64,000 nucleotides of DNA from an uncultured Verrucomicrobiota bacterium (GTDB lineage Bacteria; Verrucomicrobiota; Verrucomicrobiia; Limisphaerales; UBA9464): contig CAIXUG010000056.1 in the NCBI GenBank assembly GCA_903922605.1, positions 62,001 through 126,000 of the forward strand, read 5' to 3'. Positions within the stretch are counted from its first letter, which is position 1. Each line of letters opens with the position of its first letter. The notes under the pieces were generated by a model that searched no databases, was not told the origin of the DNA, and saw only the letters and a program-made list of their open reading frames with translations. The position numbers and the translations under genes are program-made. Below are positions 7,194 to 35,139 of this stretch, piece after piece.

Positions 7194-8131
7194 AGGCTCT
7201 CGTCACCGGCGGTGCCGGATTCATTGGTTCCCATCTCGCGGAGGCGCTCGCGCGCCGAGGTGTCGATGTGACCGTGCTCGACAATCTCAGCGGTGGCCGC
7301 GAGGCGAACCTCGCCTGGCGTCTGGCCGGCGCGCCGGTCGAACTGGTAAAGGGCTCGGTCACCGATGGGCCATTGCTGGCGCGACTCCTGCCCGGCTGCG
7401 ACTGGGTCTTCCACCAGGCGGCGATGCCGAGTGTGCCGCGGTCGGTGCTGGAGCCGGTCCTCAGCAACAGCCAGAACCTCGACGCCACGCTGCAACTGCT
7501 CGTCGCGTCGCGGGATGCCGGGGTGAAGCGCTTCGTCTTTGCCTCCTCGTCGGCCATCTACGGCGACAGCGAAGTGTCACCCAAGCACGAGGGCCTGCCG
7601 CCCAATCCGCTCTCGCCCTACGGACTGCAAAAATACGCGGCGGAACGGTACGGCCAGCTCTTCCACCAGCTCTACGGCCTGCCCACCGTGGCACTGCGCT
7701 ACTTCAATGTCTTCGGTCCGAGGCAGGCCTTTGATTCGCCCTACTCGGGCGTCATCGCGCGCTTTTGCACCGCGTTTCTCCGGGGCGAACCGCCCGTGAT
7801 TTTCGGCGATGGCACACAGTCGCGCGACTTCACCTACGTGGACAACGTGGTCGCGGCGAACCTCGCTGCCGTCGAAGTCCCGGAATCACAGGTGGCGGGA
7901 CAGGTGTTCAACGTCGCCGGCGGCAACAGCATCACGCTGCTCGACCTGGTGCAGAGCCTCTCCGCCATCAGCGGCCGGGCATTGTCCCCCGTCCTGCATC
8001 CGGCACGAGCCGGGGATGTGAAGCATTCCCGCGCCGACATTTCCGAGGCGCAACGCGCTTTGGCTTACACCCCGTCGGTGGACTGGAGCGAAGGGTTGCG
8101 GCGCACCTACGAGTGGTACCGGGGCCAGTAG
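7190..8131 (+). CDS. NAD-dependent UDP-sugar 4-epimerase (WbpP/GalE-like extended SDR)
   Basis: 313 residues. The NAD-binding motif TGGAGFIGSH starts at residue 6; the catalytic triad is SSSAIYG and YGLQK (YXXXK), and LRYFNVFGPRQ is the substrate-loop signature of UDP-hexose epimerases. The N-terminus overlaps the upstream dehydrogenase by four bases. The dehydrogenase/epimerase pair is the classical arrangement for UDP-GalNAcA or UDP-GlcA/GalA supply to LPS and capsule pathways. It could equally be a 4-epimerase or a uronate epimerase. The gene is followed by a GC-rich array of hairpins (R1) that may serve as a transcript end. Confidence 0.9.
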   Translation: MKALVTGGAGFIGSHLAEALARRGVDVTVLDNLSGGREANLAWRLAGAPVELVKGSVTDGPLLARLLPGCDWVFHQAAMPSVPRSVLEPVLSNSQNLDATLQLLVASRDAGVKRFVFASSSAIYGDSEVSPKHEGLPPNPLSPYGLQKYAAERYGQLFHQLYGLPTVALRYFNVFGPRQAFDSPYSGVIARFCTAFLRGEPPVIFGDGTQSRDFTYVDNVVAANLAAVEVPESQVAGQVFNVAGGNSITLLDLVQSLSAISGRALSPVLHPARAGDVKHSRADISEAQRALAYTPSVDWSEGLRRTYEWYRGQ

Positions 8132-8247
8132 GTCGGGCCGCTGGCCCGACACTGTACGACGGGCTGCCAGCCCGGCGGATGCTGCTCTGGCTTTTCGGCG
8201 GGCTAGCAGCCCGCTGTACCTGCCGGGCTGGCAGCCCGGCCTACTAC
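8128..8247. repeat. R1 hairpin array C (four GC-rich palindromes)
   Basis: Four consecutive palindromes follow the epimerase stop: 8132-8150 (8 bp stem GTCGGGCC, loop GCT), 8161-8173 (GGGCT, loop GCC), 8198-8214 (GCGGGCT, loop AGC) and 8222-8240 (GCCGGGCT, loop GGC). The array begins GTAG and ends CTACTAC. The linker TGTACC (8215-8220) between the last two units is the same as in the array at 35.0 kb. Stem sequences differ from the other arrays, but the three-base loop, stem length and linkers are kept. Confidence 0.85.
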
Positions 8248-15314: not shown

Positions 15315-15448
15315 GTAGAGCAGGTTTGAAACCTGCTGTATCGCCGATTTGTAATCGGCACCGCGTGGACAGCTTGGTCGGGTTTGGGTAAGCACGGCGC
15401 GTTGCAGGTTGAAAACCTGCGATACGGCAGAGTGCAACTCTGCGCTAC
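15315..15448. repeat. R1 hairpin array A
   Basis: Four 17-base hairpins: 15320-15336 (GCAGGTTTGAAACCTGC), 15343-15359 (GCCGATTTGTAATCGGC), 15404-15420 (GCAGGTTGAAAACCTGC) and 15427-15443 (GCAGAGTGCAACTCTGC). The first two are joined by TGTATC and the last two by GATAC, which is its reverse complement; the array opens with GTAGA and closes with GCTAC. A 44-base spacer separates the pairs. The whole is therefore an inverted repeat of hairpins. Stems vary but stay perfectly paired. It fills the gap between eboE and the nucleotidyltransferase. Confidence 0.92.
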
Positions 15449-35005: not shown

Positions 35006-35139
35006 GCAGTGCAGAGTTGCACTCTGCTGTACCGCAGGTTTGCAACCTACGAGGGCAGGGAATTTTCTAGGCGCCCCGGAAACGAGACGCCCAGCCGACT
35101 GCAAGTCGGCGATACAGCAGATTACAAATCTGCGCTACG
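35006..35139. repeat. R1 hairpin array B
   Basis: Four 17-base units: 35011-35027 (GCAGAGT-TGC-ACTCTGC), 35034-35050 (GCAGGTT-TGC-AACCTAC, one mismatch), 35094-35110 (GCCGACT-GCA-AGTCGGC) and 35117-35133 (GCAGATT-ACA-AATCTGC). The first pair is joined by TGTACC, the second by GATACA, and the end is GCGCTAC, as in array A. A 43-base spacer separates the pairs, close to the 44 of array A but unrelated in sequence. It lies between the adk-like gene and fmt. Confidence 0.92.

Follow-up and report, generated by a model that had tools for sequence, protein, structure and literature searches.

Tandem-hairpin arrays in a Verrucomicrobiota genome as probable REPIN-type elements mobilized by RAYT transposases

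Repetitive extragenic palindromic (REP) sequences and REPINs are among the commonest bacterial repeats, although how REP-associated tyrosine transposases (RAYTs) recognize and spread them is unsettled. GTAG REPs and REPINs are defined by GTAG-footed hairpins whose stems occur in complementary variants, by head-to-head dimers that enclose a spacer and by their association with RAYTs (PMC3733652, PMC3116915, PMC6006769), and a tandem hairpin pair is described as absent or under-represented. REPINs themselves were introduced by Bertels and Rainey in 2011 as inverted REP doublets of Pseudomonas fluorescens, and a 'clover' fold was put forward there as the structure that RAYTs recognize (PMC3116915). 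Opitutus terrae, a member of the Verrucomicrobia, is rich in GTAG repeats (PMC3733652). Here we analyze a 64-kb stretch of an uncultured Verrucomicrobiota genome (G000; the whole stretch is called the window), in which an original prediction had pointed out two arrays, A and B, of four hairpins each. We consider it highly probable that these arrays are RAYT-mobilized, non-autonomous REPIN-type elements with two REP hairpins in tandem at each end. GTAG REPs, REPINs and RAYTs are already known; new are the doublet ends and direct evidence that stems turn over on both arms.

Array A (15315..15448; whole arrays and the spacer are given without strand) is a full double-hairpin element. Its left end (15315..15359, + strand) consists of GTAG and an A, hairpin GCAGGTT/AACCTGC, linker TGTATC and hairpin GCCGATT/AATCGGC; after a 44-nt spacer (15360..15403), the right end lies inverted (15404..15448, − strand) as hairpin GCAGGTT/AACCTGC, linker GATACG, hairpin GCAGAGT/ACTCTGC and a terminal GCTAC. 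GTAG falls at 15315-15318 and the hairpins at 15320-15336, 15343-15359, 15404-15420 and 15427-15443, so that the earlier description of hairpins, linkers, opening and end was exact. Array B (35006..35138) shares the plan of GTAG, hairpin, TGTATC, hairpin and a 43-44-nt spacer followed by the inverse of all, as predicted, but it opens with GCAG rather than GTAG, its second hairpin has six of seven pairs with one C·A mismatch, and its end is 35138. Array A lies 20 nt downstream of the stop codon of a 391-aa gene, and array B starts 3 nt past that of a 210-aa gene, which we take from its sequence to encode adenylate kinase. The window contains 18 perfect hairpins with 7-bp stems and 3-nt loops; A and B account for seven of them, and a further array, C, described below, for three. 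Folded as single-stranded DNA, arrays A, B and C are far more stable than their shuffled counterparts (z = -4.95, -4.18 and -7.52).

The plan is not confined to A and B. A covariance model built from 44 arrays of this plan (called R1) matches about 26 places in the 5.3-Mb genome, 19 of them full length, and finds matches in 27 of 58 Verrucomicrobia relatives, with some congeners lacking them. Looking among the other copies for unpaired stems or random linkers left the predicted plan standing: in 17 full arrays of G000, each admitted on the condition that 24 or more of its 28 pairs form, Watson-Crick pairing holds in 466 of 476 stem cells, with eleven different stems in many combinations. GTAG and CTAC stand at the ends of all 44 aligned arrays except B with its GCAG opening, although most of the 44 were found with a pattern that includes the terminal CTAC. 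Two tandem hairpins per end, in two inverted ends around a spacer, are kept throughout 44 to 66 arrays. In the 66 full arrays, spacer lengths fall into three groups (24-26, 42-46 and 61 nt) that are about 18 nt apart. The inner left and inner right hairpins share pair 3 in only two of these 66 arrays against 24 expected; when oriented, the arrays form a polar element with one C-type half and a spacer often beginning AGGGCGTCGG. Common descent of such a heterodimer explains the deficit at least as well as a functional rule against identical inner hairpins, which we therefore set aside. An open frame of at least 200 codons spans 8 of 19 arrays compared with 317 of 386 control places, a rough measure given that the frame through A was scored open despite a preceding stop codon. 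Together with subfamily C, at about 26 places each in G000, these are high-copy, mostly extragenic elements.

A link to an enzyme comes from related genomes. In genome G002, a 244-aa RAYT gene lies between two arrays, one beginning about 44 nt before its ATG and the other ending at its stop codon. Its product scores 79.2 bits (2.8e-22) against the NCBIfam model REP_Tyr_transpos (NF047646), just below the cutoff of 80, and aligns with Escherichia coli TnpA_REP (4ER8) at 2.3e-6 over the HUH-to-tyrosine region, with NHVH and GYTVRNP aligned. The RAYTs of G050, G058, G064, G065, G066, G067 and G069, 57-68% identical to that of G002, likewise have arrays or half arrays on both sides, so that all eight RAYTs at or above 57% identity, G002 included, are flanked on both sides. 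At 51-55% identity, the RAYTs of G003 and G036 and one of G061 have flanking arrays of the doublet plan in which another linker is used (GGTT or AGTT type), and in the same scan those of G061:C412 and G066:C34 (51-54%) had no flanking arrays. Below 50% nearly all RAYTs lacked flanking arrays in that scan, the exception being G069:C114, which has tandem hairpins with another linker. This pattern by identity indicates that RAYT clade and array version go together. The earlier suggestion of a REPIN-like element moved by a RAYT is thus supported by the GTAG/CTAC ends, by multicopy, patchy presence and by this flanking in eight other genomes. In G002, tandem amplification with a period of about 238 bp was seen in arrays L220, L225, L226 and L227, also beside the RAYT gene.

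Patchy distribution fits a mobile element. A pattern scan with one genome per species returned at least 113 stretches, of which nearly all bear the name of Verrucomicrobia or one of its subgroups in their titles and two give no phylum there; among the matches listed, many belong to subdivision 3, Limisphaerales or Pedosphaera. G002 holds at least 57 strand-doubled matches, and the near-complete congener G007 has none. Site A is collinear in all seven congeners tested, with the array present in G004 and the site empty in the other six. At site B the array is absent in other congeners, G004 (L213) keeping a remnant of the first hairpin only; this remnant adjoins a different repeat (GTAGCAGCCGACRTAAGG...), probably of another REP family.

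Which part of the structure is constrained can be read from covariation. In the four local hairpins of the 44 arrays, which were partly gathered by a pattern that placed no restriction on pairs 3, 5 and 6 of any stem, 98.4% of cells are paired and 164 cells have changed on both sides; the covariation score is 0.376 against 0.107 for shuffled data, a value reached by none of 500 shuffles, and moving the partner by 1-3 columns reduces pairing to 26-41%. For the larger inverted repeat, the long-range pairing from end to end, covariation did not rise above shuffles. The predicted four covarying hairpins inside a larger inverted repeat therefore hold for the hairpins, and the larger repeat exists, but without covariation of its own. 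Constraint acts on the four small hairpins and not on the larger inverted repeat. We therefore rejected the idea that selection favors a long hairpin formed by the two ends together, and the data support the local, clover-like fold over it. Within the stems, constraint differs by position. Inner pair 6 occurs in each of the four Watson-Crick types among 206 distinct half units and is paired in 205, compared with 73 expected, and pairs 4 and 7 are nearly always G-C and T-A; the constancy of pairs 1 and 2 is less certain because it was partly fixed by the search patterns. At some stem pairs the sequence itself seems to be read; at others pairing seems to be enough.

Orthologous copies record how the stems change. 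Four arrays or half arrays could be compared between G000 and G004 within flanks that are about 91-93% identical; five stem pairs had changed on both arms and three on one arm, all three of the latter at the loop-closing pair 7. In array A, the outer right hairpin reads GAGT/ACTC in G000 and GATT/AATC in G004 (GCAGATT/AATCTGC), a change on both arms; the second hairpin of L017 differs as GCCGATT and GCAGCTT, with two pairs changed on both arms, and L028 and L278 have one both-arm pair change each. Between L278 and L237 the whole array is inverted in place with its flanks still collinear. When close copies were grouped by the similarity of their spacers, which diverge by 12.6% on average, changes at pairs 3, 5 and 6 affected both arms in 50 cases and one arm in 28. 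Template switching between inverted repeats makes arms alike and inverts the spacer (PMC8604942), so that one process would cover both the both-arm changes and the in-place inversion.

Array C (8128..8244), a third array of the plan in the window that the original prediction did not mention, carries other stems and represents a second subfamily: GTAG-GTCGGGCCGCTGGCCCGAC-ACTGTAC-hairpin-spacer-hairpin-TGTACC-hairpin-CTAC. Similarity search found about 26 full-length copies in the genome with identity of up to 95%. Their similarity ends at GTAG and CTAC, beyond which the flanks differ, and these limits are the boundaries expected of a REPIN. Subfamily C is multicopy and younger than the A/B type.

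From these observations we envision the following mechanism. Each end would be a GTAG-C-hairpin followed by a GTAT-C-hairpin, with the two ends inverted, and a RAYT-family Y1 HUH transposase encoded elsewhere would recognize the ends as folded single-stranded DNA and move the arrays. The enzyme may read the shape of the fold together with the GTAG/GTAT feet and, in each stem, the fixed pairs 1, 2, 4 and 7, whereas pairs 3, 5 and 6 would need only to pair. A mutation on one arm would then be lost or copied to the other arm, most simply via replication template switching inside the hairpin, which could also explain the array inverted in place. Both single-strand recognition and cutting by this RAYT and the template-switch step for these arrays are inferred. 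As a more speculative extension, the hairpins could be self-correcting modules, their stems rewritten by RAYT- or replication-linked arm-to-arm copying that permits fast sequence change under a constant fold and constant contact pairs, with the two hairpins per end serving as a paired recognition site.

Several observations weigh against mobilization by a RAYT. Neither transposition nor cleavage was observed. RAYT genes are present in G000, which is 95.8% complete, and none is flanked by these arrays; the expected RAYT gene thus turned up with its arrays in eight relatives but not here, present mobility in G000 is not shown, and A and B are probable orphans, perhaps older copies that are now relics. 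At the empty orthologous sites, neither a target duplication nor an exact insertion junction was readable because the intergenic DNA is too diverged. Lastly, some arrays lie inside an element of about 300 bp with terminal inverted repeats (TIRs), so some copies may have travelled with another element.

As candidates for the cognate enzyme in G000, three small Y1 genes, L012 and L013 were rejected, since each has its own unrelated palindromes. Locus L013 (G000:C86:87802-88185) is a RAYT gene in which what look like its own flanking palindromes lie within the coding frame, after the part for the HUH motif and before that for the tyrosine motif; in-frame REP insertions of this sort have been described for subclass 2.4 (PMC6006769). 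RAYT (Y1_Tnp) domains are also embedded in frame within other proteins whose reading frame continues uninterrupted across them, an intein-like placement of a transposase, at L012 (G000:C61:113953-117255), L376 (G066:C37), L368 (G058:C148), L377 (G058:C22), L244 (G014:C46), L378 (G069:C263) and L369 (G069:C114). The host protein in G000 is alanyl-tRNA synthetase; hosts in relatives are DNA polymerase III alpha, a DinG-like helicase, an SNF2 helicase, an N6-methylase-like protein and a UDPGP-like protein.

The TIR-bearing copies raise the alternative that the arrays are merely the interior of a miniature inverted-repeat transposable element (MITE) moved by a transposase that recognizes its ends. 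Several G000 copies do align over about 300 bp with 24-bp TIRs (GGGCGCATCTTTTCAYNGTGGCTG) at both ends, and this repeat end occurs at 38 places in G000 against none in the control. Arrays A and B and those flanking RAYT genes have no GGGCGCATCTTTTCAYNGTGGCTG-type TIRs, however, and the same TIRs enclose other interiors without an array, which makes array and TIR element separable and this explanation very improbable. The MITE-like family with GGGCGCATCTTTTCAYNGTGGCTG ends, as at C83:20831-21127, C3:55821-56019 and C1:60081-60355, has at least three different interiors, the R1 array being one. Selection on RNA folding, with the arrays as a structured RNA or RNA regulatory element such as an attenuator or stability hairpins, would account for the strong covariation in the four hairpins and for the position of A and B directly downstream of gene stop codons. 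Yet the window has no Rfam match, and the arrays flank RAYT genes, have no conserved locus, are patchily distributed and amplified in tandem, and are missing from orthologous sites. For half of the changes that affect both arms in close copies no G·U intermediate is possible, and G·T mismatches (25) are not more frequent than A·C (30), a weak argument in itself because every transcript carries halves in both orientations. Selection on RNA structure, which the original prediction had also offered, is not needed, and we find it hardly credible.

A further alternative, itself compatible with a RAYT origin of the element, is that covariation arises without selection, arm-to-arm template switching keeping the pairing by mutation alone in elements that are now functionless debris. 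Even close copies differ mostly by changes on both arms, and the array inverted in place is what template switching predicts (PMC8604942). Mutation alone would not explain why the linkers, the GTAG feet and pairs 1, 2, 4 and 7 keep their sequence from genome to genome, and subfamily C is young and multicopy; we judge the explanation unlikely.

If the arrays are RAYT-mobilized REPIN-type elements, they offer a natural experiment in which the base pairs that are read can be told, from many diverged copies, from those for which pairing suffices, with orthologous copies that record both-arm changes and in-place inversion and with at least eight matched RAYT/array pairs.

Compared with known systems, the arrays resemble the REPINs of P. 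fluorescens (PMC3116915) in having two inverted REP ends around a spacer, in being multicopy and RAYT-linked and in their compensatory changes, which were noted there as well; they differ in that REPINs have one REP hairpin per end, whereas these have two in tandem, with stems that vary at pairs 3, 5 and 6. The GTAG REP superfamily described by Di Nocera in 2013 (PMC3733652) shares the GTAG foot, stems of 6-9 bp, complementary stem variants, head-to-head dimers and heterodimers; in our arrays, by contrast, every end is built from a tandem pair, the comparison with O. terrae families being by description only. E. coli TnpA_REP and its BIMEs are alike in a RAYT with HUH and tyrosine motifs (4ER8) and in elements amplified in tandem, but E. 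coli REPs require a bulge in the stem (PMC8266576), whereas the perfect stems here resemble the perfect palindromes of group 3. In group 3 RAYT biochemistry, mismatches in perfect stems damage cutting and some stem positions can be swapped (PMC8266576), which agrees with the stem pattern of our arrays. The subterminal hairpins of IS200/IS605 are similar in that a foot tetranucleotide and a hairpin are recognized by a Y1 transposase, although the G002 enzyme is a much closer match to the RAYT model than to that of IS200. Beyond the doublet ends, a second difference from known GTAG REPs and REPINs is a turnover of stems in which pairing and contact positions are held.
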